Shown here one piece after another: positions 20,268 through 35,058 of a DNA stretch of 64,000 bases. Within the stretch, counting starts at the first letter, position 1; each line of letters begins with the position of its first letter. The DNA is from an uncultured Anaerolineaceae bacterium (lineage in GTDB: Bacteria > Chloroflexota > Anaerolineae > Anaerolineales > Anaerolineaceae). The notes beneath the pieces are model-generated. The model was not told the DNA's origin, did not search any database, and saw nothing but the letters and a program-made list of their open reading frames with translations. The DNA lies in assembly GCA_927443345.1 (NCBI GenBank), contig CAKMKJ010000018.1:1-64000 (forward strand), in the 5' to 3' direction. Made by a program: the position numbers and the translations under genes.

Positions 20268-21560
20268 ATGTCTGATGTGTTGAATAATAAATTCTATGAA
20301 CTCAACCTGCCTGACCGGTTAGCCCAACTCAGTCGCGAAAGCGGCGTGCCGCTGGATGAACTGAAAGTGATGAGCGGCGACGGCGGGTTAACCGCGGACC
20401 AGGCAGATCACATGGTCGAAAATGCGGTGGGCGTGTTTGGCCTGCCTTTAGGTGTTGCCCGAAACTTTATTGTCAATGGCCGTGAGGTTTTGGTGCCCAT
20501 GGCTGTGGAAGAACCTTCGGTCATCGCCGGGGCATCATTCATGGCTAAACTTGCGCGGCAGGGAGGCGGATTCAAGGCGGTGGCCTCCGCACCTGAAATG
20601 ATCGGGCAGTTGCAGGTGTTGGATGTGACCAACCTTGATGAAGCTCGCCGCAAGTTGGAAGAACACCGCGCGGAACTGCTGGAAATGGCCAGCGCGGTTG
20701 ACCCGGTGCTGGTGCGTTTTGGCGGCGGTGCGCGAGACTTGCAAGTACGTTTGATTGAAGATTCTGCCATCGGGCCTTTTTTGGTGGTGCATCTGATTCT
20801 GGATGTGCGGGATGCCATGGGCGCTAATGCCATCAACACCGCGTTGGAGCGCATTGCTCCTCGGGTGGCAGAAATCAGCGGTGGCAGGGTGCATTTGCGC
20901 ATCCTTTCCAATCTGGCTGACCGCAGACTGGCTCGTGCCACCTGCACCGTTCCGCTTGAGGCGTTGGCATTTGAAGGCTACACTGCCGAGAAAGTACGCG
21001 ACGGCATCCTTGAGGCTTGGGCTTTTGCCGAGGCGGACCCATACCGCGCGGCGACGCACAACAAGGGAATTATGAACGGCGTGGATGCTGTGGTGCTTGC
21101 CACCGGCAACGACTGGCGCGCCGTGGAAGCCGGGGCGCATGCCTACGCTGCTCGCAGCGGAAGATACACCAGCCTCTCCGTATGGTCTAAAGATGTTCAG
21201 GGCAACTTGTGCGGATTGCTTGAAATGCCAATGGCGGTTGGCATCGTCGGAGGCGCAACCCGCGTGCATCCTGCGGCACAAGCCGGGCTTAAGTTAATGA
21301 AGGTCACCACCGGCGCTGAACTGGCGGAGATCATTGTCTCTGTTGGTCTGGCGCAGAACCTGGCTGCGCTACGTGCGCTAGCCACAGAGGGTATTCAACG
21401 CGGACACATGAACCTGCATGCCAGGCAAATAGCGGCAGCAGCCGGCGCCCAGGGCGATCAAATAGAAAAATTGGCACAGCAACTGGTGCTTGAAAAAACC
21501 ATCCGGGCAGAACGCGCGGAGCAAATTCTCAAAGAGTGGAGAAAAAAAGCTGATGACTGA
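20268..21560 (+). CDS. Hydroxymethylglutaryl-CoA reductase, class II
   Basis: Interconverts HMG-CoA and mevalonate with a nicotinamide cofactor. The 430-residue protein shows the class II pattern: [12 protein letters not shown], catalytic Glu in VEEPSVIAG (residue 82), the dinucleotide motif DAMGAN, Lys266 in [10 protein letters not shown], Asp282 in ATGNDW, and catalytic His380 in RGHMNLHAR. All catalytic residues are present. Class II enzymes were first known for mevalonate catabolism, but the adjacent HMG-CoA synthase suggests a biosynthetic role here. The gene overlaps the next by 8 bases. Confidence 0.95.
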
Positions 21561-22635
21561 TAAAGCTTCTGCAAAGGCTGATCAACTATTATTACGCACA
21601 GACCGCAAGACCGGCATCGTCGGTTACGGTGCTTACGTTCCGCGTTACCGGCTGCCGGGCACAGAAGTCGCCCGCGTTTGGACGGGCGGCGGCAGCGGCA
21701 CAGTAAAGGAAAAATCTGTGGCCGGGCTCGATGAAGACGTGATCACCATGTCGATTGAAGCGGCACGCAACGCCATGCTGCGGGCAGGGATTGACCCCTG
21801 CGAACTGCGAGCGGTTTGGGTGGGGTCTGAATCGCATCCTTATGCAGTGAAACCTTCAGGCACCGTTGTCGCAGAAGCCATCGGCGCGTCGCACAACATC
21901 CAGTCAGGCGATTGGGAATTTGCCTGCAAGGCCGGGTCTGAAGCCATGGTGGCTGCCACTGCGTTGGTGGGATCAGGCATGGGCAAGTATGCACTGGCCA
22001 TCGGCATGGATACCGCGCAGGGCAAGCCGGGAGATGCGCTGGAATATACGGCTTCCAGCGGCGGCGCGGCTTTTGTAATCGGACCTGCAGAAGAGTCCGT
22101 GGCGAAGATTGAGGCTTCCTATTCTTACGTTTCTGATACGCCTGATTTCTGGCGGCGGCCTGAGCAGAAATATCCAGAGCATGGACAGCGCTTTACCGGT
22201 GAACCGGCGTATTTCAAACACATTGAAACTGCAGGGCGTACAATGCTTGAACAATTGGGAAGGACAGCAGCCGATTACGCTTACGCAGTCTTTCACCAGC
22301 CCAACCCCAAATTCCCAATGAAAGCCGGTGTCGACCTCGGTTTTACCCCCGAGCAGATCAAACCCGGCTTGCTGGCGCCAGTGATTGGCAATACTTACGC
22401 GGGTGCCTCTCTGATCGGCTTGACAGCCGTACTGGATATCGCAAAAGCGGGTGACAAGATCCTGATGGTTTCATATGGTTCTGGCGCCGGGTCTGATGCA
22501 TTCTCAATCGAGGTGACCGATAAGATTACCGAGCGTCGAACTTTGGCGCCCTCCACCGCAGACTACATCGCTAGGCGTACGCAGATTGACTATGCCGTCT
22601 ACACGCGCTTGCGCGACAAGATTAACATGGGTTAG
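21553..22635 (+). CDS. Hydroxymethylglutaryl-CoA synthase, archaeal type
   Basis: Condenses acetyl-CoA with acetoacetyl-CoA. The 360-residue thiolase-fold protein carries the acyl-accepting Cys125 in [12 protein letters not shown], His248 in [12 protein letters not shown], and an acidic residue in GLDEDVITM. The short length and sequence style match archaeal HMG-CoA synthases. The ATG at 21553 lies inside the last codons of HMG-CoA reductase; a longer frame from 21490 is only the overlap. In archaea this enzyme works in a complex with a thiolase and a DUF35 protein, both encoded next. Confidence 0.93.
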
Positions 22636-22641
22636 GCAGAG

Positions 22642-23811
22642 ATGATTCCAGACGTGGTTATCGCAGGGATCGGACAGATCCCGGTAGGAGAACATTACGA
22701 GCTGAGCCTGCGCCAAATGGGTGTGCGAGCGCTAAGGGCTGCCATTAAAGACAGCGGCGGGATGAAACCCCAGGCGCTGTATATTGGCAATATGCTGTCC
22801 TCCATGGTTTCACATCAGGCAAATTTAGGGGCGCTGTTCACCGATTATGCCAATTTGGGTGGGATTGAATCTTATACCACCGAAGCCTCCGGCGCATCTG
22901 GTGCAGCAGCGCTGCGGCTGGGCTATTTGGCCATCCTCTCAGGCTATGTGGATACAGTAGCTGTGCTGGGTGTGGAAAAGTGGACCGACATGGCGCACAG
23001 TGAATCCGAGACGGCGGCGGCGTTGGGACTGGATTTCGATTATGAGTTCATGCAGGGCATGACAGAAACCGGTCAGGCAGGCTTACTGATGCAGCGCTAT
23101 TTATATGAACACAACTTACCCGCGGATGCATTGGGCGGTTTTGCAGTGCAGGCGCATGCCAACGGAGTTAACAATCCAAATGCCTTTTTCAGAAAGGCGA
23201 TCTCACTTGACACTTACTGTAAATCTGGCATGACCAACCCACCGTTGAATATGTTTGACGCCGCCCCTTATGCGGATGGTGCGGCTGCCGTGATTTTGAC
23301 CCGGCGCGACCTGCTGCCCAAAGACCATCCGCAGCCGGTGGTGCGCATTCTGGGTTCTTCCATCGCCACAGATACGCTGGCGCTGCACGATCGCAAAGAT
23401 CCACTGGCTTTTTTTGCTGCCAAAGAAGCGGTGCAGAATGCATGCGCCCAGGCTGGCATCATGCCGATATACACCGACGTGCTTGAACTGGATGATTCCT
23501 ATTCCATTTATGCCGCGCTGACCCTCGAAGCCTGCGGATATGCAGACCCCGGAGAAGCGCCGGCATTGGCGCGTGATGGAGGTCTCGCCCCAACGGCAAT
23601 TCGCCCCGCCATGACCATGGGCGGATGCAAGGCGCGCGGCAACGCCATTGGCGCCAAGGGCGTCTACCAGGCGATTGAAGCGGCTATGCAGTTACGCGGC
23701 ACCTGCGGCGCGAATCAGGTACGCGATGCGCGGCTGGCGGTGACCCTGGCCCTTGGTGGGCCGGCTTCCACGGCGGTGGCGCATGTGTTTGATCGGGTAG
23801 AAACCCGATAA
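22642..23811 (+). CDS. Thiolase-family protein lacking catalytic residues
   Basis: A 389-residue thiolase-fold protein in the place where archaeal clusters encode acetoacetyl-CoA thiolase. Its overall similarity is clear (GVEKW, PLNMFDAAPYADGAAA, MGGCKARG). However, the nucleophilic Cys expected in an EAACASG-like motif is Gly84 (EASGASG), the His of the HDAF-like motif is Asp284 (ELDDSYS), and the His of GHP is Asn334 (RGNAIGAKG). The final GG-x-G motif is also altered (LGGPAS). It therefore should not catalyse ordinary thiolysis or condensation and may be structural. The frame is intact. Confidence 0.88.
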   Translation: MIPDVVIAGIGQIPVGEHYELSLRQMGVRALRAAIKDSGGMKPQALYIGNMLSSMVSHQANLGALFTDYANLGGIESYTTEASGASGAAALRLGYLAILSGYVDTVAVLGVEKWTDMAHSESETAAALGLDFDYEFMQGMTETGQAGLLMQRYLYEHNLPADALGGFAVQAHANGVNNPNAFFRKAISLDTYCKSGMTNPPLNMFDAAPYADGAAAVILTRRDLLPKDHPQPVVRILGSSIATDTLALHDRKDPLAFFAAKEAVQNACAQAGIMPIYTDVLELDDSYSIYAALTLEACGYADPGEAPALARDGGLAPTAIRPAMTMGGCKARGNAIGAKGVYQAIEAAMQLRGTCGANQVRDARLAVTLALGGPASTAVAHVFDRVETR

Positions 23812-23973: not shown

Positions 23974-24396
23974 ATGGAAATTCCACGCCACTGGCGCTTA
24001 AAACAACAAAGATATGCCCTGATGGGCGAAGTTTGTCCGCACTGCGAAGCCAAGATATTTCCTCCGCGGGATGTGTGCCCCGAATGCGGCGGAGAAGCCA
24101 AGACCCAATTTGCTTTCAGCGGCAAAGGCAAGATTTATTCATACACCGTGATGCGCGATGCGCCTGCCGGGTTTGAACATAATTCGCCTTATACGGTTGC
24201 AGTGGTGGCTCTCGATGAAGGCCCCATGGTGACGGCGCAGTTGACTGACCTGGGTGAGGAACCGGTGGCCATCGGCATGCCGGTGGAGATGGTGACCCGC
24301 AAGATCCGCGAAGACGGCGAGCGCAAGGGGATGATTGTGTACGGTTATAAGTTCCGACCAATTGGATTTGGACAGCGCTCGCTTGAGACGCAATAA
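23974..24396 (+). CDS. DUF35 Zn-ribbon/OB-fold protein
   Basis: A 140-residue protein with an N-terminal rubredoxin-like zinc ribbon (CPHC and CPEC) and an OB-fold. In archaea DUF35 proteins bridge thiolase and HMG-CoA synthase and hold the CoA substrate. The order of genes fits the same complex. The C-terminal tail (after YGYKFRP) lies at the edge of the mobile element and may have been altered by integration. CGGAGA precedes the ATG. The recombinase reading frame of the element enters this gene in antisense. Confidence 0.9.
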   Translation: MEIPRHWRLKQQRYALMGEVCPHCEAKIFPPRDVCPECGGEAKTQFAFSGKGKIYSYTVMRDAPAGFEHNSPYTVAVVALDEGPMVTAQLTDLGEEPVAIGMPVEMVTRKIREDGERKGMIVYGYKFRPIGFGQRSLETQ

Positions 24397-25966
24397 TTCT
24401 TAGAAGGTCCATTGCTATTGTGATCTCAATTTGCCGATCTTTGCTAATAACAATCTTCTCAACTAACACCCTGACCAACCTTTGTTTCATTTCAAACTTC
24501 TGACTCCGCTCCTCTTCATTGAGAGGAGCGATTTTTAACCATTCAAGACCTGCAGAAAGGTCAGTTAAGTAATTTCGTGTTATTGCTTCCCAATCTTTCA
24601 ATCGATCAATATTCTCTAGGGCATCACTATTGTTGAGTTTCTTCTTGATGTCCAATTCTTGAATATTCAAGGCACTTAATTGGTATTCCATGTCTTCATC
24701 CGATATTCGATTTTTTCGTGCTTGGGTTATTACCCATTGGCGTTCCATGGTTATTGAATCAAGAGTTTGTTGTAACTTCTCGGTATCTTCTGCTTGTGTA
24801 TCAATCTTCTTTTCCATTGACTTAATATATCTTTGCGCGCTACCGATAAGAATATTGGGGTCTTCAAGAACAGCAATTACTTTGTTCCACACATATTCAT
24901 CAAGTTTGTGATGACCTATGGACTTAGGACAATCTGGATGCCGCATATCAGGATGTTTTTCTGGACAGTAATAATTTCCACCGACAGGTGATTTTCGAGG
25001 AACAATTTCACCCTTGCTATTCTTTCTGTAAAACGGGTGATACGTAACTCCTCTCCATCTTTTACCACACGCACAAGTCACCAGACCACTGCAAAGGTAA
25101 TCAATTTTTACGTGATGAATTGGAAGTTTCTTGTTCAATTGTCTTAGAACTATGAACCTCTCGTAAATATCTTTATCTAAAATTGCAGGAACAGCAATAT
25201 TAAATGACTCACCATCACGAGAAAATGTTTTTACTCCATGTGAATATTCTTTAGCAGCTTTCAAGATCGATTGGATACTCGTAATTGCCCAGTGGATTCT
25301 CCTTGGTGTACTGGATCCCTTCTGTGGAGCATCGTTTTCAATTAGGCGTCGGCGAATTTCTAAAAGTGGTGTCTTTTGTAAGTACCATTCAAAGATTTGT
25401 TTAACCCACTTAGCTTCTTCTTCAACCACTTCAATAATCTCACCATTACGTTTATAACCATAACGATCCTGACCTGTATTGGCTTTTCCTGCTTTAAGAC
25501 GGGCTTTTACTCCCATGGACATTCTTTCACGCATACCATCCAATTCCATTTGCCCAACCCATGCCTTGACTGGTGCCATTCGCTGGTCAAAATGCTCTTT
25601 TGCTAAAAGAACATTTAACTTGTTTTCTTGAATGACATCTAAAACCTGAATCATTGATTTCAACCCTCTGTAGAGTCTATCCTCTCTCCAGGCTATGATT
25701 GTGTCAAACACACCTTTCCCAGCATCATTCAATAATTTTTGAAGCTCAGGTCGATCTAGTCTCGTTCCTGAAGGTTCAACTAAGCGGTTCCCAGTTCGAT
25801 ATTTTTGTGTGTCTCGGTATATTCCAATAACAGTGAGGTCATTTTCCTGTGCTACTTTCAAACAGTCCCTTTCTTGTTCTTCTGGGCTTGATTTCTCAGC
25901 TTGGTGTTCAGACGAAACTCGAATATAAATTGCAGCAGTCTTTGATTTCTTTAATCGCGGATCCAT
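24116..25966 (-). CDS. Large serine recombinase
   Basis: Site-specific recombinase that likely integrates and excises the element. The resolvase domain begins AAIYIRVSSEHQ with nucleophile Ser18. The Recombinase domain (about 165-275) and a zinc-ribbon domain (CACGKRW to CPEKHPDMRHPDCP) follow, then a coiled coil (about 375-450). The open frame is 616 codons, but the last 80 or so are antisense to the DUF35 gene and become Pro/Arg/Ser-rich nonsense-like sequence. The native protein probably ended near residue 535. AAGGAGG precedes the ATG at 25966. Confidence 0.9.
   Translation of the reverse strand: MDPRLKKSKTAAIYIRVSSEHQAEKSSPEEQERDCLKVAQENDLTVIGIYRDTQKYRTGNRLVEPSGTRLDRPELQKLLNDAGKGVFDTIIAWREDRLYRGLKSMIQVLDVIQENKLNVLLAKEHFDQRMAPVKAWVGQMELDGMRERMSMGVKARLKAGKANTGQDRYGYKRNGEIIEVVEEEAKWVKQIFEWYLQKTPLLEIRRRLIENDAPQKGSSTPRRIHWAITSIQSILKAAKEYSHGVKTFSRDGESFNIAVPAILDKDIYERFIVLRQLNKKLPIHHVKIDYLCSGLVTCACGKRWRGVTYHPFYRKNSKGEIVPRKSPVGGNYYCPEKHPDMRHPDCPKSIGHHKLDEYVWNKVIAVLEDPNILIGSAQRYIKSMEKKIDTQAEDTEKLQQTLDSITMERQWVITQARKNRISDEDMEYQLSALNIQELDIKKKLNNSDALENIDRLKDWEAITRNYLTDLSAGLEWLKIAPLNEEERSQKFEMKQRLVRVLVEKIVISKDRQIEITIAMDLLRIIASQASAVQIQLVGTYNRTQSSPCARRLRGSCGSPSPPACRWPPVPHPGQSTAPSPWGLHREPPLQPYKANYVQTRQAHRASRCMNKSCLCR
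24350..24420. other. Probable left attachment junction of the mobile element
   Basis: The 3' end of the DUF35 gene meets the recombinase gene here in opposite orientation with no spacer. The recombinase frame stays open across the boundary. The exact crossover is not identifiable because serine integrases need only a two-base core and no matching long repeat was found at the right side. Confidence 0.5.
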
Positions 25967-28390: not shown

Positions 28391-29179
28391 TTAAAGATCA
28401 ACTTTACTTATGATCTCTCTAGCCACTTCATGAATCCTGGTCAATGAATTTGTAAAATCTCCACTTTTTAGTCCTTGCAGCGCTAAGTAATTAGGGCTTT
28501 TCAAATCTTCAATGCCAAAATACTTTGACACAACAAACGCTACGGATTCTGCCTCCAACTCTTTGATCGAACGATCAGATAAACAATTACCATCCTGGTG
28601 CATCAACTCATGGGCAAGCTCATGGATCAGGGTCTTGGTTCCAGCGCAAGAGTCAATTTCAATCAAACCACCCTTACTGACGCCTTGAACTTCTCCGGGA
28701 AGATCTTTGAAGATAACTTCAATGCTTTTGCTTTTTGCAAATGCTATCAATTTATTCCTCAAATTCTCGTTCTGTTCAGGTGACTTCCAATCCGGAGTCG
28801 GTGGCAAAGGATCGCCAGCAGTTTGCGAAACATCGAAGACATGAACAATCCGAAAACCACTTATTACCTTTGGAGAGTCTTCTTTATCAGGATTCTCTTT
28901 ATAAACCATGGGTGCAAAAATCGGGATGCCGCGTTCCCCCTTTTTAACGAATCGGTTCATTTTCTTCCAGGTTTGGAAGCCAGCAACGTTAGTCGCATCA
29001 GGTTTTGTAAGCATGATCAACAGCACATTGTTTGGGCTGTATTTGTGGAACTTTGAAGCAAACACAAGATACTTTTGCATGGCTTCTGACCGTCTTGCTT
29101 CATCGGTCTCTAACGCTAAAGTCTCAAGGTAGCCAGTAATCTTCTTTTGTAAGTCATGAGCATTAGTTTGTGTTTCCAT
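28391..29179 (-). CDS. ArdC-like antirestriction protein
   Basis: A 262-residue protein. The N-terminal half resembles the ssDNA-binding ArdC domain (YSPNNVLLIMLTKPDATNVAGFQTWKKMNRFVKKGERGIPIFAP), the second half is a metallopeptidase-type domain with HELAHELMH and a distal Glu in ELEAESVAFVV. ArdC proteins shield incoming DNA from host restriction. The ATG at 29179 has GGAGG six bases upstream. The upstream in-frame ATG at 29191 overlaps that site and is rejected. Confidence 0.88.
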   Translation of the reverse strand: METQTNAHDLQKKITGYLETLALETDEARRSEAMQKYLVFASKFHKYSPNNVLLIMLTKPDATNVAGFQTWKKMNRFVKKGERGIPIFAPMVYKENPDKEDSPKVISGFRIVHVFDVSQTAGDPLPPTPDWKSPEQNENLRNKLIAFAKSKSIEVIFKDLPGEVQGVSKGGLIEIDSCAGTKTLIHELAHELMHQDGNCLSDRSIKELEAESVAFVVSKYFGIEDLKSPNYLALQGLKSGDFTNSLTRIHEVAREIISKVDL

Positions 29180-29198
29180 CTTATCCTCCATATAGAAA

Positions 29199-29234
29199 AA
29201 GCCAGAGAAGGCTAATTGAAACCCTCTCTGGCTT
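29199..29234 (-). terminator. Hairpin before the ardC-like gene
   Basis: AAGCCAGAGA / TCTCTGGCTT pair over 10 bp, followed on the minus strand by TTTTTCTAT and immediately by the GGAGG of the next gene. Confidence 0.85.
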
Positions 29235-29251
29235 GGATTAGGGTACTACTT

Positions 29252-29608
29252 TCAGATGTACATGCCGAAAGGCAACTCACCATCTTTGATCATGTCTGCG
29301 ACCTTCTTAGCTGTCTGAATGGCAATTTCATTTCTTGGATCGGTGTGTTCCTGTTCTGCGAGACCGCAAATGATCCCGAAGGCAAAACAGATCACCAATC
29401 GCTGCATTGTTCGATGAGTGAACCGCAGATCAAGACCAACTTTCTTCCCTTCCGGGAACCCCTTGCCTCCAAGGTTCAAAAATTCGTCTAGAAGCTTGGT
29501 GAAATTAATTAGGCTCATGGACATAGCAATGGTATAGGTGCTGATCGATTCATTAGTACTGGAGGTTGAGTTCAATTGTTTCAATTGAATTTCGGTGTCT
29601 GAAGTCAT
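29252..29608 (-). CDS. Element protein of unknown function
   Basis: A 118-residue protein. Its ATG overlaps the TAA of the HIRAN gene by one base, so it is translationally coupled to it. A hydrophobic helix-like stretch (VICFAFGIICGLAEQE) lies near the middle, but there is no signal peptide. The N-terminus is rich in Ser/Thr. No family recognised. Confidence 0.6.
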   Translation of the reverse strand: MTSDTEIQLKQLNSTSSTNESISTYTIAMSMSLINFTKLLDEFLNLGGKGFPEGKKVGLDLRFTHRTMQRLVICFAFGIICGLAEQEHTDPRNEIAIQTAKKVADMIKDGELPFGMYI

Positions 29609-30039
29609 TAGTCCTCCCAGTCAAATTGATGTTTCGTGTGTCTTCGTTGGGTATCAGTCAACTTTGGAATCTTAAATGAGATTACTAACCCAAGTGCGAA
29701 GTCGTCAAAACTTCCACCAGTTAAAAGAGTCACTTTTACTTTAACTGGTCGGTCGCATTTATCAAAATATGGAGCAAGGTTACATGCAAGGTACTTGTTC
29801 AGGTAGCCAAGTTGTTCCCCATTGTTCCTTGTCACCATGATCGCATTAGCGTCAAAGGGGTTGATTGTTTCTCTTTCAAGCCAGATCCGATCTCCCATTT
29901 GGACTTTAGCTACCACCTCCTGGCGATCCGCGAAGGTCAAACCCACGACCCGAGTTGTGATAACTCTGCCATGAATCTTGGATTCGGGAGTTACGACGAG
30001 CTTGGGTTGAACAGTTAGACTTACAGATTGATTAGCCAT
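29608..30039 (-). CDS. Stand-alone HIRAN-domain protein
   Basis: A 143-residue protein that is essentially a HIRAN domain (about residues 25-95: VVGLTFADRQEVVAKVQMGD, then NPFDANAIMVTRNNGEQLGYLNK). HIRAN domains bind single-stranded 3' DNA ends and are usually fused to helicases or nucleases; alone they occur mainly in mobile elements. A DNA-end or replication-fork-binding role is inferred. AAGGAGA precedes the ATG. Confidence 0.85.
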   Translation of the reverse strand: MANQSVSLTVQPKLVVTPESKIHGRVITTRVVGLTFADRQEVVAKVQMGDRIWLERETINPFDANAIMVTRNNGEQLGYLNKYLACNLAPYFDKCDRPVKVKVTLLTGGSFDDFALGLVISFKIPKLTDTQRRHTKHQFDWED

Positions 30040-30063
30040 TGCATCTCTCCTTTTTAAACAGAA

Positions 30064-30091
30064 AAAGGGCAGCCATGATTGACTGCCCTTT
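30064..30091 (-). terminator. Hairpin before the HIRAN gene
   Basis: AAAGGGCAG / CTGCCCTTT, 9 bp, continuing on the minus strand as TTTTTCTGTTT and then the ribosome-binding site of the HIRAN gene. Confidence 0.85.
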
Positions 30092-30099
30092 GGTTATGC

Positions 30100-30279
30100 C
30101 TATTGTTCCAGGCATTTAATGATCAGTACTCCAACTTGTGGATTGGTTATTACTACATGTCTTTCTGGAATCAAACCTGCAGTAACAAGCCATTTACCTT
30201 CAAGCCGGATCTGTGCTTTGAGATTCTTCTTGCGATGCTCACCAACCGATACAATTTTCAAGACTCTTTTCATGGTCAT
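30100..30279 (-). CDS. SymE-like protein
   Basis: A 59-residue protein resembling SymE-type toxins of AbrB-like fold: a basic N-terminus, then LKAQIRLEGKWLVTAGLIPERHVVI, which matches the xxLxGxWLxxAGF core of that family, and a closing VLIIKCLE strand. Its ATG overlaps the TGA of the upstream gene (ATGA). SymE of E. coli is an SOS-induced toxin; here the function is unproven and an antisense RNA antitoxin was not identified. Confidence 0.7.
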   Translation of the reverse strand: MTMKRVLKIVSVGEHRKKNLKAQIRLEGKWLVTAGLIPERHVVITNPQVGVLIIKCLEQ

Positions 30280-30626
30280 CGTCCGTTGCACCAGTGACCA
30301 TCCTGTGTCTTATGGGCATACCAGCTTCGATTGTTTTTCTGGTAAAGGCGCATTTCACAATGATGCCTTCGACATATGGATTCGCCTTTGACATCCTCAT
30401 CTTGAGACTGAGCATTTGAGTTGTTACGGACAACCGGAGAGCATTGAGTTTCTTTCAGTCGCTCAATGACCAATTGTCCTTTTCGCATCACTTCCGTGCC
30501 TGACGCTGCTTCAAGTGATAATTGACACACGAAGCCACTTGGGTCAACGTACTTTACTGTCCAGACTGCGCTTGTGTCGAGATCGGGAACATATTGCTCG
30601 GGAATTAGATGTGAATTTTCTGACAT
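30276..30626 (-). CDS. Small Zn-finger protein
   Basis: A 116-residue protein. The C-terminal 35 residues hold a Cys/His cluster (C-R-R-H-H-C, then a Tyr-Ala-His and a final W-C-N-G) resembling the treble-clef fingers found in many phage and plasmid proteins that bind single-stranded DNA. The N-terminal half is a short strand-rich region. It is coupled to the SymE-like gene downstream. AAAGGA precedes the ATG at 30626. Confidence 0.65.
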   Translation of the reverse strand: MSENSHLIPEQYVPDLDTSAVWTVKYVDPSGFVCQLSLEAASGTEVMRKGQLVIERLKETQCSPVVRNNSNAQSQDEDVKGESICRRHHCEMRLYQKNNRSWYAHKTQDGHWCNGR

Positions 30627-30650
30627 AGATATCCTTTCTTAAAACAAAAA

Positions 30651-30679
30651 GAGCGTTCTCCACTTGCAGAAGAACGCTC
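30651..30679 (-). terminator. Hairpin before the Zn-finger gene at 30626
   Basis: GAGCGTTCT / AGAACGCTC, a perfect 9-bp stem, followed on the minus strand by TTTTTGTTTT. Confidence 0.88.
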
Positions 30680-30692
30680 AAGATTGAATTGA

Positions 30693-30992
30693 TTAGATCA
30701 ATGATTCAGAACAGTCATCACAGACTGAACGAATGTCATCCCAAACCTCACCATTAGAAAAATGGAATCCACCTATTGTGGAAATGTGTTGATGATGACA
30801 CTTCGACTCCTCAAGCAACCGTACAAACTCAGGCAGCTCAACCCATTTACCTTCCGTGCCTGAACCTTCACAAGAGGGGCAAGGACGATGCCTGATGTAT
30901 GAATTACCTCTGGAATCGAGGTCTGCTCCAATAGGCAAATAGGCTTCACCATCACAACGCTGACACTTGGTTAGCACACGAACCTTAACCAT
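30693..30992 (-). CDS. DnaJ-type Zn-finger protein
   Basis: A 99-residue protein with two CxxC pairs in the first half (CQRCDG and CPSCEGSG), as in the Cys-rich repeats of DnaJ, plus a later C/H cluster (CHHQH, CDDC). It probably binds zinc and could bind nucleic acid or protein. The ATG at 30992 is selected because GGAGG stands seven bases upstream; a longer frame from 31028 would run across the hairpin and that ribosome-binding site. Confidence 0.7.
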   Translation of the reverse strand: MVKVRVLTKCQRCDGEAYLPIGADLDSRGNSYIRHRPCPSCEGSGTEGKWVELPEFVRLLEESKCHHQHISTIGGFHFSNGEVWDDIRSVCDDCSESLI

Positions 30993-31022
30993 ATAAACAT
31001 CCTCCTTCTGGTTTAAGACAAA

Positions 31023-31049
31023 ATTCAAGCCTATAAACCGGGCTTGAAT
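31023..31049 (-). terminator. Hairpin before the DnaJ-type Zn-finger gene
   Basis: ATTCAAGCC / GGCTTGAAT, a perfect 9-bp stem with a 9-base loop, followed on the minus strand by TTTTGTCTT and the next ribosome-binding site. Confidence 0.85.
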
Positions 31050-31067
31050 CGGTCTCCTGGAGCAGAT

Positions 31068-31268
31068 CTAATGCCTTGTTGTGTATGTATTCCAAGGCTG
31101 ATAATCTGTTTGGATGTTATCAAATTGAAGGTGGTTTCGATTTGCTGGAACATCCACTTGATTATTTGGTGAGTCATTGTCCATGATACAAGACCCCGGA
31201 TCCAGGCACACAACATGAAACTTATCCTGACAAGCTCGACATAACCATGATGGTTTTCTTTCCGGCAT
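31068..31268 (-). CDS. Small Cys-containing element protein
   Basis: A 66-residue protein chosen over a longer overlapping frame (31031-31285) because AGGAGGG lies just before its ATG and because a Cys/His pattern (CRACQDKFHVVC) is visible near the N-terminus. The rest is polar and Asn/Asp-rich. Function unknown; probably zinc-binding. Confidence 0.6.
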   Translation of the reverse strand: MPERKPSWLCRACQDKFHVVCLDPGSCIMDNDSPNNQVDVPANRNHLQFDNIQTDYQPWNTYTTRH

Positions 31269-31296
31269 AAACCCTCCTTAAACAAAAAGGACCCAA

Positions 31297-31312
31297 TCTC
31301 TAAGTTTAGAGA
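31297..31312 (-). terminator. Hairpin before the 66-codon gene
   Basis: TCTCTAA / TTAGAGA, 7 bp with a two-base loop, followed after a short GC stretch by TTTTTGTTT and AGGAGGG on the minus strand. Confidence 0.7.
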
Positions 31313-31345
31313 CCAGGCAACGATAACAAAGTTTTATTTTATTTA

Positions 31346-31432
31346 TTACTTATTTCGTGAATTGGAAATCTTGTCGACGATTGCGGCAATAAGAAATGCC
31401 ACAAACACAAATACAAGGACGATCGCATCCAT
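31346..31432 (-). CDS. 28-residue single-span membrane peptide
   Basis: A tiny gene with a near-perfect ribosome-binding site (AGGAGGTGA) five bases before the ATG at 31432. The product is MDAIVLVFVFVAFLIAAI followed by a basic tail VDKISNSRNK. A single membrane helix and a positively charged cytoplasmic end are evident. The length and build resemble small membrane toxins, KdpF-like peptides, or minor coat proteins of filamentous phages (pVII, pIX), but no family can be assigned. Confidence 0.65.
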   Translation of the reverse strand: MDAIVLVFVFVAFLIAAIVDKISNSRNK

Positions 31433-31463
31433 ATATCTCACCTCCTTTCCGTATAACAAAAAT

Positions 31464-31484
31464 CCCGACCAAGGTTCCGTCGGG
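31464..31484 (-). terminator. Hairpin before the 28-codon gene
   Basis: CCCGAC / GTCGGG with a 9-base loop, followed on the minus strand by ATTTTTGTT and then the AGGAGGTGA ribosome-binding site. Confidence 0.8.
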
Positions 31485-31833
31485 TTGATATGATTGCTGA
31501 TCAAGCAGTGACCAGCTATGCAGTTTTTTGATCCCCTATGTTCACTCCTAGTTACTTTTACTAACTATATAGTCCTCAAAAACTCAGGATGATAATTTAT
31601 TCTATTTTGTATTTTCGAGTTGATTGTTTGGTTTGATTAACTACTGAATCCAATATGTAGTATATATTAAATTTTTCATGACAATGATGGGATAGTAATT
31701 TGCTCTTTATCGTATAAAAATATATTTGTTGGACTAAAAATAGAAATCTTCACTTTTGTTTACAGAAAACAATTATTGGTTAAAAAAATTCAAGTTTAAA
31801 AGCAATTAAATTACTTCTTTCAATATGTAAGAA
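31485..31833. other. AT-rich noncoding region upstream of the small-gene array
   Basis: About 350 very AT-rich bases without a supported gene. It contains the inverted repeat TAGTTA/TAACTA (31549-31567) and several TATAAT-like words, and probably holds the promoter of the minus-strand small-gene array. Confidence 0.5.
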
Positions 31834-31867
31834 AACAAGCCAGTCTATAATTTTAGATTGGCTTGTT
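31834..31867 (-). terminator. Terminator after the 165-codon gene
   Basis: AACAAGCCAGTCTA / TAGATTGGCTTGTT pair over 14 bp with one G-U, followed on the minus strand by TTTTCTT. Confidence 0.88.
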
Positions 31868-31897
31868 ATTAATAATTATCTAGAAGGATTAACCGGT

Positions 31898-32395
31898 TCA
31901 GTTTTTCTTATTAAACTCAATGTATTCCTCTCCAAGATATTCAAAAGCTAGATGCCAATCACCACCTTTAGTACATAATGCACTATATTCCGAAGGTTTT
32001 AGATCAAACTTTTCTTGAAAATAATTTGCAAAATATCTTTCCCGATCTGAAACTTCATTATCCATTAGTCCTACACATGTGATTTCTATTAATAATTTTT
32101 CTTGCTTTTCTCGATCATCTTTAATAAAACTTAAAATTCGATCTAAAACAGGCTCAAGAGAGTCATCTAAAGTATTATTGTTTAATTTCTCCCAGAACAA
32201 TTTATTTGAATAATCAATTTCTTCTACAGAAAATCCCCATTGTAATAAAAAAAGTTTTATTACAGCATCAACAATGTCACCCTTTATATCTGATTTCGTT
32301 TCATTATCAGGTATTTCCATATTTCGCATAAAATGAAAATAATCAACTCCAAATAGTATTTTTCCGTTTGGTTTTACAGCAGTGTTTTCACTCAT
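31898..32395 (-). CDS. Possible TerB-like partner of the AAA+ ATPase
   Basis: A 165-residue, mostly helical acidic protein. The stretch EITCVGLMDNEVSDRERYFANYF recalls the TerB-type motif in which a helix ends in D-x-E-V-S-xx-E, but the match is partial. Its ATG lies inside the last codons of the AAA+ gene (8-base overlap), so the two products are made together and likely interact. Function unknown. Confidence 0.6.
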   Translation of the reverse strand: MSENTAVKPNGKILFGVDYFHFMRNMEIPDNETKSDIKGDIVDAVIKLFLLQWGFSVEEIDYSNKLFWEKLNNNTLDDSLEPVLDRILSFIKDDREKQEKLLIEITCVGLMDNEVSDRERYFANYFQEKFDLKPSEYSALCTKGGDWHLAFEYLGEEYIEFNKKN

Positions 32396-33476
32396 TTTTC
32401 TTCTCTCCCTTATTAGTAATTGAGGTTTGAATTACCTTTGTGTCCGATTGAGTCACAAAGGGAATATCACTTGGTAGGATTACTCGCAATTCTTCGGAAG
32501 TTGGATCATTGATAGTGGTTCCAATTCTGAGAGCTTGATTCTTGATTACAGATTCAAACAAATTGCGTACATAACGAGCATTACCGAAAGATTTATCCCT
32601 TATTGCATAGTTGTAATCAATAGCGGTAAATACGTATTCCAATGCTTCTTCTGTTGGAGAATAATTTTCTTTGACACATAACCGTTTGAAAATCTCAGCC
32701 ATTTCTTGTGGGACATAATCGTCGAAATGAATATATGTGCTAAACCGACTTTTTAGACCCTCATTTGATGACAAAAATTTCCCCATAGGTTCAGGGTAAC
32801 CAGCAACGATTACCACAAAATCATCCCGGTGGTCTTCCATTCTTTTTAATAAGGTAGAAATTGCTTCCTCCCCATAGTCCCACGGAGAATCTTCACCTTT
32901 TGATAGGGAATATGCTTCATCAATAAAAAGTATTCCCCCTAAAGCGTCTTTGATTTTTTCATCAGTTTTTATTGCTGTCTGTCCGACATAACCACCAATT
33001 AGACCTGAGCGATCAGTTTCTACGAGATGCCCTTTTGAAAGGAGTCCCATGGCTGCAAGCATCTGACCATATAGACGTGCGATTGTTGTCTTTCCTGTCC
33101 CAGGACTTCCATAAAACACACTATGCAGAGATGGCTTTGTAATTGAAATTTTCTTTTGTCGTCTTAATTCCTGCACTCTGACAAATTGTAAAAGTGCTTT
33201 TATCTCACCTTTAACCGTATCTAATCCAACCAGATTATCCAACTCAATAATGAGTTCATTTATTGACTTAGTTTCTATTTTTACTTCGGATTTAACAGAA
33301 ATATCTGATTTTGTTACTTGGTTTTGGTTTTGTACAACCTCCTCTTTTTGAGGTGATTGTTGAACTAGTGTTGAATAGATATCATATGGATCATTTGTAA
33401 TTGTTGGTTTTATTTCATCTTTTTTGATTTCATTTGAATCGTCAGAATCCCCATAACCTTTAAATTTATCCATCAT
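32388..33476 (-). CDS. CbbX/SpoVK-type AAA+ ATPase
   Basis: A 362-residue ATPase from the ATG at 33476, chosen because GAGGAGGG precedes it; an upstream in-frame start at 33524 is poorer. A polar, Gln-rich N-terminal tail (1-70) precedes the AAA+ core: LVGLDTVKGEIKALL, Walker A GSPGTGKT (123-130), Walker B ILFIDEA (182-188), and an arginine-finger region GLKSRF. The pattern matches the CbbX/SpoVK/EccA group, whose members remodel protein complexes. It is not of the Zot type used in filamentous-phage assembly. Confidence 0.88.
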   Translation of the reverse strand: MMDKFKGYGDSDDSNEIKKDEIKPTITNDPYDIYSTLVQQSPQKEEVVQNQNQVTKSDISVKSEVKIETKSINELIIELDNLVGLDTVKGEIKALLQFVRVQELRRQKKISITKPSLHSVFYGSPGTGKTTIARLYGQMLAAMGLLSKGHLVETDRSGLIGGYVGQTAIKTDEKIKDALGGILFIDEAYSLSKGEDSPWDYGEEAISTLLKRMEDHRDDFVVIVAGYPEPMGKFLSSNEGLKSRFSTYIHFDDYVPQEMAEIFKRLCVKENYSPTEEALEYVFTAIDYNYAIRDKSFGNARYVRNLFESVIKNQALRIGTTINDPTSEELRVILPSDIPFVTQSDTKVIQTSITNKGEKKNE

Positions 33477-33669
33477 GCTAATTCCCTCCTCGCATTTATC
33501 AATAATATAAAAAGTATATTTCAATAAAAAATTGATGTCAAATGAATCTGATACTATTCTTTTCTTAAACTTTATTTTCGTCTATCGCTAGAGAAAATGA
33601 ACTTAATTGTCTTGAATTTTGTACTTCTATATTTATGATTGTCAAGATGTATTAGCCAGTTTCTAGCTC

Positions 33670-33682
33670 TCCAGCGCTAGAG
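33670..33682 (-). repeat. 13-base motif, copy 2
   Basis: Exact reverse copy of CTCTAGCGCTGGA, upstream of the AAA+ gene. Confidence 0.75.
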
Positions 33683-33783
33683 TCGATCTATTTTTCCGTT
33701 TATTCCCGAATTATCCCTAATAATCAACATTGTTAAAAAGTGATATCTTTTTTTGTATTGGTATTCACATTTTCAATTCTTTA

Positions 33784-33796
33784 TCCAGCGCTAGAG
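33784..33796 (-). repeat. 13-base motif, copy 3
   Basis: Exact reverse copy of CTCTAGCGCTGGA, 114 bases from copy 2 and just downstream of the stop of the 118-codon gene. Confidence 0.75.
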
Positions 33797-33809
33797 TTGA
33801 ATTTCGTCA

Positions 33810-34166
33810 CTATTCATCTTTTATGTCGAATCTCAATTGATTGTTTGCCTCTTCATCAATTACTATTCCTGCCCACTTTTTGTTAAATGCCTTGAAATCG
33901 CCAGTTCCAATCATCTCGAAGATGATAGGAGGTAGAGCCTCTGTTTTTAAGAAACTTTCAAGCTTATGGATATATACGTCTTCAAAGGTAAGAATTATTG
34001 TTGGTAATAGTTCAGACCAAATTTTCTGAGGTTGTATAAATAGAAATCCATTGTTTAAAAGGGTGGGTTTCTGTTCCCAATAAATTTCAGCTTCCACTCC
34101 ATCAATTAACAAATGAAGAGAACAATGACCCTTATAAGAGGTAGCATGAATTTTTGTATAACGCAT
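33810..34166 (-). CDS. Small partner of the putative nuclease
   Basis: A 118-residue cytoplasmic protein of unknown function that starts 25 bases after the stop of the PD-(D/E)XK nuclease gene, with AGGA before its ATG. It is strand-rich at the N-terminus and contains several aromatic residues, but no motif is recognised. The tight pairing suggests an immunity, specificity or regulatory subunit. Confidence 0.6.
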   Translation of the reverse strand: MRYTKIHATSYKGHCSLHLLIDGVEAEIYWEQKPTLLNNGFLFIQPQKIWSELLPTIILTFEDVYIHKLESFLKTEALPPIIFEMIGTGDFKAFNKKWAGIVIDEEANNQLRFDIKDE

Positions 34167-34191
34167 TTTTCCTGGGAGAACCTTGCTGATT

Positions 34192-35058
34192 CTACAAATA
34201 TCTTTCAGTTATATATCTGATGTATTCTGGATGTTCATTACGGTAATCTCTTGCAAGCAAGACGATCAATTCTTGATAGGTCATGGAATGAATGTGGATA
34301 CCGTCTTTCTTGGCAATGGCAATAAAGTTTTCGATATCGGCTCTATGGTCAGTACCATCCTTGCCCAGAGCGTCATACCAAAGGTACATCAATTTAAAAT
34401 CTTTCTTCCCAGAAACCGCCTTCAATCCTAATATGTGTTTGATCAATTGAGCTGCATGAAGATGGTGGTATCGATTATCCATTGGGTTGATCTCCAATGC
34501 CAATTCATGTAGAGATGGTAATTCGGTCCAAATATCCGGATTATTAAGATACTTGTCTTTCAAACCATCATGTTTTTCAGAGGAATATGCTTCAGAAAAT
34601 TTACACTCAATTGCGAACCGATTGAAGGGTGAACCCTCCTTGCAATGAAAGACTACATCAATATTAGGTGGAATAATAAAATTAGTATTTATGATGTATT
34701 TGTCTTCAAAATCAATATTCGTTGTATATTCACTTCCTTTATTACAGAAACCACATGCTGCTGCAATCGCGTTGGTCAAACCTCGTCTCTGCCAATACTG
34801 GAAAATATTCACACCAATTGCTGACGAAGAATGTACCGCCTGCATTTTTGCTGGATTATCCAAAGATCCTGTGATCTCGTTTCCGTTTCCCTGGCGAAAT
34901 TGATTCTGAGTTCGTTCTTCAAGTGGTTCAAATAAGTTATCGTTAAGGACTGTAGTATAAGCTTTGCGTCCTTTATCACCTTTGCTTCCGATAAGTTGAA
35001 TGTTTTTGTTCGTAGCCCATTGGATTTGTTTTGAAACGATATACTCATAGCCACCCAT
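34192..35058 (-). CDS. PD-(D/E)XK nuclease, PGN_0703-like
   Basis: A 288-residue protein resembling the PGN_0703 family of putative restriction endonucleases. The nuclease core is seen as an Asp in PPNIDVVFHC followed by FAIECKFSEAYSS (Glu-x-Lys), with the preceding HSSSAIGVN segment also typical. C-terminal parts contain LMYLWYDALG and a final helix. AGGGAGA precedes the ATG at 35058. No methyltransferase gene accompanies it. It may be a defence nuclease carried by the element. Confidence 0.72.
   Translation of the reverse strand: MGGYEYIVSKQIQWATNKNIQLIGSKGDKGRKAYTTVLNDNLFEPLEERTQNQFRQGNGNEITGSLDNPAKMQAVHSSSAIGVNIFQYWQRRGLTNAIAAACGFCNKGSEYTTNIDFEDKYIINTNFIIPPNIDVVFHCKEGSPFNRFAIECKFSEAYSSEKHDGLKDKYLNNPDIWTELPSLHELALEINPMDNRYHHLHAAQLIKHILGLKAVSGKKDFKLMYLWYDALGKDGTDHRADIENFIAIAKKDGIHIHSMTYQELIVLLARDYRNEHPEYIRYITERYL

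Follow-up and report, generated by a model that had tools for sequence, protein, structure and literature searches.

Genetic composition of the mevalonate locus

The window analyzed here, a stretch of 64,000 nucleotides from the genome of an uncultured Anaerolineaceae bacterium, carries an operon of four genes in the order HMGR-HMGS-ThlA-DUF35. The third gene (22642-23811, + strand), here named thlA, encodes a protein of 389 amino acids, starts with ATG and contains no internal stops. The four-gene arrangement was kept in most of the genomes read within the order Anaerolineales. Thus, both the undamaged frame and the conserved operon setting claimed in a preliminary description of this locus were recovered. 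The main features are:

20268-21560, + strand: class II HMG-CoA reductase (HMGR), first gene of the operon, overlapping the next gene (TIGR00532, 384 bits with a cut-off of 260; PF00368)
21553-22635, + strand: archaeal-type HMG-CoA synthase (HMGS) with intact Glu93, Cys125 and His248 (TIGR00748, 517.6 bits; 6esq chain I, 407.9 bits)
22642-23811, + strand: ThlA, thiolase-fold pseudoenzyme of 389 amino acids, starting 6 bp past the HMGS stop (PF22691 and PF00108)
22891-22893, + strand: Gly84 codon, at the catalytic Cys site
23077-23079, + strand: codon of Ala146, which is Asn in every active homologue compared and Ala in 62 of the 64 dead copies of the order
23491-23493, + strand: Asp284 codon, at the first catalytic His site
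23641-23643, + strand: Asn334 codon, at the second catalytic His site
23749-23766, + strand: last Gly-rich motif, A370-L-G-G-P-A where active homologues have NIGGSG
23974-24396, + strand: DUF35 protein, zinc ribbon and OB fold, with intact Cys21/24/35/38 (PF01796, PF12172; 115 bits to 6esq chain E)
28391-29191, - strand: ArdC-like anti-restriction N-domain
32388-33524, - strand: AAA ATPase
34192-35058, - strand: restriction-endonuclease-like protein REase-ARP

HMGS and DUF35 aligned nearly end to end with their counterparts in the archaeal thiolase/HMGS/DUF35 complex (PDB 6ESQ, Methanothermococcus), and the genes for the three subunit types adjoin each other here as well as in relatives. In this operon the Glu/Cys/His of HMGS and the four zinc-binding Cys of DUF35 are all present. 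DUF35 is encoded by a single copy in the whole genome. ThlA stayed below the curated NCBIfam thiolase cut-offs, scoring 318.6 bits with PRK06064 (420 required) and 253.5 bits with AcCoTHIOL_METTL, the methanogen acetyl-CoA acetyltransferase model (600 required).

A large serine recombinase gene (24116-25966, - strand) overlaps the DUF35 gene at its 3' end in antisense. Where it abuts, the last ~10 residues of DUF35 past YKFRP were unlike those of relatives. Additionally, short stretches repeating the 3' end of DUF35 were located 1-5 kb downstream in the relatives L032, L033, L038, L039, L043 and L044, resembling stacked att remnants. The DUF35 3' end (region 23974-25966) looks like an integration site, and the minus-strand genes at 28391-35058 are likely cargo of the serine-recombinase element.

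Loss of the catalytic residues

In the following, residue triplets such as CHH or GDN give the residues at the Cys position, the first His position and the second His position. In ThlA the Cys position is occupied by Gly84 within TEAS[G]ASG (archaeal counterpart EAA[C]ASG), the first His position by Asp284 within LEL[D]DSYS (EV[H]DAF) and the second by Asn334 within KARG[N]AIG (KARG[H]PVG). At the last motif ThlA has ALGGPAS, as compared to N[IV]GG[ST]G in archaeal-type thiolases. The alignments of ThlA to PDB 7yvy and 6esq were gap-free near all three catalytic sites and bear out the three substitutions and the altered Gly-rich motif as initially proposed.

A displacement of the catalytic residues was considered and rejected. 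Among the 64 dead (Cys-less) homologues of the order there was no conserved Cys column, the best one being position 268 with 53%, and the surroundings of the old catalytic sites held no conserved His. The comparison with archaeal thiolases that had been suggested as a check thus found the residues gone and no displaced substitutes. ThlA shares the fold of archaeal-type acetoacetyl-CoA thiolases but lacks their nucleophilic Cys, both catalytic His and the curated score. The thiolase fold without nucleophilic Cys is shared with the thiolase-like proteins TLP and SLP, from which ThlA differs in its genetic setting. Judged from these alignments, ThlA is confirmed as a pseudo-thiolase without recognisable thiolase catalytic residues.

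Distribution and age of the loss

Members of the thiolase family were found in 100 of 101 genomes, comprising the genome studied here and its relatives. In every genome read of the order, the ThlA-type gene following HMGS lacked the Cys. Since each ThlA-clade homologue in this operon slot is without Cys and the solo paralogues of the same genomes are CHH, the loss lies far beyond chance. The triplets found in the slot within the order include GDN, GCN, GSN, GYN, GHN, GHF, EWF, ESF, DHH and QHN. The Cys was absent in 64 of 64 full-length operon copies of the ThlA clade sampled in the order and in 77 of 80 named loci of relatives, samples picked by similarity to a dead query in which dead copies are over-represented, so that taxonomically drawn sets give the fairer base. 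Cultured relatives with dead copies are Leptolinea tardivitalis (GCN), Longilinea arvoryzae (EWF) and Thermanaerothrix daxensis (DDN).

In the 64 dead copies of the order the Cys position was occupied by Gly (48), Glu (9), Asp (3), Gln (2), Ser (1) or Asn (1). The first His position showed His (19), Asp (18), Ser (9), Tyr (6), Trp (4), Cys (4), Phe (3) or Thr (1), and the second one Asn (45), Phe (13), Tyr (2), His (2), Asp (1) or Glu (1). With the Cys missing throughout, the second His in nearly all copies and the first His in most, this pattern suggests that the catalytic Cys went first among the three residues.

Outside the order but within the class, CHH copies or dead ones (DHN, DHH, AHH) occupied the slot. 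Furthermore, all seven operons read from families that we take to be Chloroflexia, computationally classified as the same phylum but another class, were dead (GTD, GSD, GHN). The loss is therefore conserved in Anaerolineae, which the preliminary description had left to be checked, and extends beyond the class.

In a tree of 55 rows calculated without the catalytic columns, 26 dead rows grouped together (bootstrap/SH-aLRT 95/92), and the DHH and AHH copies were placed among active ones. The best 55-row tree implied two independent losses of the Cys and the best 103-row tree three, and a single dead clade was compatible with the data (AU p 0.41). All that can be said from these trees is that there were probably one or two ancient losses of the Cys, plus one Cys-less solo copy. 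The latter (L152:5928-7079) is a family member of the type THH, with Thr for Cys and both His kept, located away from any HMGS gene. No relative of ThlA was found in one scan of viral contigs.

Selection, conservation and predicted fold

The dN/dS of thlA against five congeners was 0.06-0.10; in the same comparisons HMGR showed 0.06-0.09 and HMGS 0.03-0.06. ThlA is thus under purifying selection comparable to that of HMGR. The predicted structure of ThlA (AF2 model, pLDDT 96.4) matched 6esq_A best, with Z 62.2 and rmsd 1.4 over 384 residues at 32% identity. With this low dN/dS and an intact predicted fold, ThlA is not a decaying copy. A recent pseudogene or an assembly error was likewise rejected, based on the dN/dS and on the dead copies present in isolates of the three cultured species named above.

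In total, 27 positions were conserved in active operonic and solo homologues and lost in the dead ones, among them 84, 284, 334, 370, 371, 374, 375, 142, 146 and 114. The recognisable ones are active-site positions (84, 284, 334, 370, 375) and their sequence neighbours, to which a few others are added. Approximately 100 other positions were still at least 90% conserved. Dead and active copies alike (85 aligned) share a set of invariant residues, among them Q59, K113, E135, G139, D206, D212, D285, E296 and Q359.

Partner subunits

None of the 129 scorable dead-thiolase operons, nor of 18 active ones, had lost the Glu/Cys/His of HMGS. Catalysis in 6ESQ involves the equivalents of Glu82 and Cys114, and CoA is bound at an interface common to all three subunits (PMC6392133). 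The CoA site common to thiolase and HMGS is reported to keep the intermediate from being released (PMC12329534).

The four zinc Cys of DUF35 were kept in most dead operons (80 counted). DUF35 of the Chloroflexia has lost the ribbon Cys and kept the OB part. Altogether, DUF35 proteins beside a dead thiolase that lack the four zinc-ribbon Cys and have a conserved OB part were observed at L154-L160, L134 and L234, representing Chloroflexia and some Anaerolineae. The DUF35 copies of family f33 gave only a partial or poor alignment at the zinc ribbon. In the operons L054, L055 and L058 the DUF35 gene was absent from the flanks fetched.

Other thiolases and the isoprenoid pathway

A second protein of the ThlA family, here named ThlB, is encoded elsewhere in the genome (G000:C25:97962-99110). 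It shares 42% identity with ThlA, has an intact CHH triplet and exceeds the PRK06064 cut-off (450.4 bits). Additionally, G000:C39 encodes a canonical thiolase of PcaF/acetyl-CoA acyltransferase type, so that the proposed search for another thiolase gave two. Other thiolases were present in every dead-operon genome tested. ThlB has lost 3 of the positions conserved in active operonic copies as compared to 27 in the dead copies, and might therefore dock on the partners of ThlA as well. When interface residues kept in ThlA and lost in ThlB were looked for, only three positions emerged.

DXP reductoisomerase (DXR), an enzyme of the MEP pathway, had no match in the genome (98.8% complete), and 61 relatives yielded three weak partial matches. 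Genes for mevalonate kinase and isopentenyl phosphate kinase adjoin each other, and the genome also encodes a diphosphomevalonate decarboxylase-like protein. Such a set corresponds to the alternative mevalonate route of Chloroflexi (PMC3857490). Given the absence of DXR and the presence of these downstream enzymes, the operon is probably the only entry to isoprenoids in this genome.

Natural variants of the operon

In genome G064 (L063:2769-5673) the genes HMGS, ThlA (GHE), DUF35 and ThlB (CHH) form one operon. Family f2 (G061, G075, G088, G100) carries HMGR-HMGS-DUF35-ThlB (CHH), and the one f2 copy placed on the 55-row tree fell within the ThlB clade (100/99). In G061, G075 and G088 no canonical thiolase scored over the Pfam cut-off, with an active CHH thiolase present in the operon. 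G086 and G092 (L245, L246) have HMGR-HMGS-DUF35 without a thiolase gene in between and ThlB at another site. The Chloroflexia carry the dead copy and canonical thiolases, with the CHH paralogue absent. HMGS genomes of the class without a clear thiolase match were mostly explained by contig ends or frameshifts, G219 apart.

The Chloroflexia together with G086 and G092 indicate that the dead subunit is independent of ThlB and can be lost where ThlB exists. Furthermore, G086 and G092 and the active paralogue in the f2 operons indicate that it is replaceable and not universally essential. Within the genomes covered, which are limited by contig ends, the variants fit a need for a thiolase-fold partner, active or not, beside DUF35 and HMGS. 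A partial duplication was observed at L050:5693-6145, where a short ORF upstream of thlA copies its first ~28 residues and continues into unrelated sequence.

Putative role of ThlA

We consider it reasonably probable that ThlA is an ancient non-catalytic structural or CoA-docking subunit of a putative HMGS complex and that acetoacetyl-CoA is made by another thiolase. ThlA would sit with DUF35 and HMGS, completing the putative complex, and would probably complete the CoA site that the three subunits share at their interface. It may thereby help HMGS to work through docking of CoA or acetoacetyl-CoA. The latter would be supplied here by ThlB and/or the canonical thiolase, and in Chloroflexia by canonical thiolases. 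We favour this role because the catalytic residues are gone, fold, selection, operon and partners are kept and alternative thiolases are present. The three-subunit CoA interface of 6ESQ and the precedent of PhlA in complex assembly lend further support (PMC6392133). On the other side stand the replaceable nature of the dead subunit (G086 and G092 without the gene, f2 with an active paralogue), the operons L054, L055 and L058 with no DUF35 gene in the fetched flanks, several dead lineages with DUF35 lacking the zinc-ribbon Cys, and the possible docking of ThlB on the same partners. Among the three options named in the preliminary description, a structural and perhaps CoA-docking subunit with acetoacetyl-CoA from elsewhere fits best, as other thiolases are present. 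However, to regard a purely structural scaffold as settled goes too far, since some lineages lack the gene.

The coexistence of thlA and thlB in the Anaerolineales genomes with both loci read could also mean that ThlA is a non-catalytic partner of ThlB, which it tunes or anchors at HMGS in a mixed tetramer or by exchange on the DUF35 docking site. The two proteins flank DUF35 in G064, ThlB is kept in genomes without ThlA and retains nearly all positions conserved in active operonic copies, and only one DUF35 is available in the genome. However, the dead operons of Chloroflexia and some Anaerolineae have no CHH paralogue and ThlB is mostly distant from the operon, and we regard such a partnership as rather unlikely. 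A different reaction in a remodelled pocket, for instance aldol cleavage, decarboxylation or thioester hydrolysis, was the third option of the preliminary description and has been weakened. It has a precedent in the Cys-less, DUF35-bound thiolase-fold aldolases Ltp2 and Sal (PMC12329534), and the consistent pocket change of Asn146 to Ala in 62 of 64 copies and the invariant D285 would agree with it. However, at least six different residues occur at each former catalytic position, which argues against one conserved new chemistry. Neither a conserved Cys nor a new catalytic set was found among the 64 dead homologues, and no dead homologue carries the YD[HC]F motif of the aldolases, leaving this reading improbable.

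That ThlA is a remnant with little or no function, slowly being lost, would agree with its deletion in G086 and G092, its replacement in family f2 and the graded loss of the two His. We hold this to be very improbable, since a functionless copy would not persist through so deep a clade; the dN/dS, the mostly intact frames across the order and the Chloroflexia and the conserved core and predicted fold speak against it as well. Most improbable of all is an acetoacetyl-CoA thiolase that still works by an unrecognised mechanism. Only the operon position and the family membership point that way, against the missing nucleophile and oxyanion-hole residues, for which there is no conserved substitute, and the availability of other thiolases.

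The archaeal complex is the standard case in which an unfavourable thiolase step is pulled by direct handover of acetoacetyl-CoA to HMGS. As a tentative scenario, in much of Chloroflexota an ancient active-site loss might have turned such a channelling complex into an uncoupled HMGS. The pseudo-thiolase would then be a docking or gating site for acetoacetyl-CoA from elsewhere, and an active paralogue could take its place on the same DUF35. A large bacterial group mostly without DXR keeps the assembly genes with a dead thiolase site, and the lasting value of this subunit may be structural rather than catalytic. The natural variants (active copy, dead copy, both or none) make this question directly testable. 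Furthermore, the genes resemble acetyl-CoA acetyltransferases and are an annotation trap: they risk being chosen for pathway engineering though they should not work as such.

Comparison with known systems

Within the literature searched, nothing was found that combines Anaerolineae with a thiolase and either mevalonate or HMG-CoA, and the pathway literature on Chloroflexi covered was silent on it. A thiolase that is dead throughout a lineage and sits in a mevalonate operon thus appears to be undescribed there. Thiolase-fold proteins without Cys are already known, namely MsTLP1, SLP, Ltp2 and Sal.

The closest solved relative of ThlA by sequence is the Pyrococcus furiosus thiolase PFC_04095 (PDB 7YVY; 275 bits, ~41% identity), which retains the Cys/His/His that ThlA does not. 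The archaeal complex (6ESQ) has the three gene types and the fold in common with the ThlA operon. It differs in that its thiolase has kept Cys/His/His. Having lost these residues, the putative complex of the present study, if formed, should not be capable of making and channelling acetoacetyl-CoA.

MsTLP1 and the trypanosomal SLP have, like ThlA, a thiolase fold without catalytic Cys, and MsTLP1 lacks thiolase activity (PMC3406046). In the parts of these reports that were accessible, an association with HMG-CoA synthase is not mentioned and SLP is described without an associated DUF35. The aldolases Ltp2-ChsH2 (6OK1) and Sal-Shy (9MYR) combine a Cys-less thiolase fold with a DUF35 partner, as in the case of ThlA (PMC12329534), but carry YDHF or YDCY motifs that ThlA lacks. 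An aldolase of the Ltp2/Sal type was rejected, as YD[HC]F occurred in none of the Cys-less homologues and ThlA has DDSY at this site.

PhlACB (PpATase, PDB 5M3K) comprises thiolase-fold, HMGS-like and DUF35 subunits, one thiolase-superfamily subunit being without catalytic residues (PMC6392133), and the ThlA operon encodes a like set. Functionally, it is the nearest parallel. Its HMGS-like subunit, PhlA, is dead, having neither Cys nor Glu, and the assembly of PhlACB probably requires it (PMC6392133), whereas the thiolase-like PhlC has its Cys and is active. In the ThlA operon the pattern is reversed, and the two systems are mirror images of each other.
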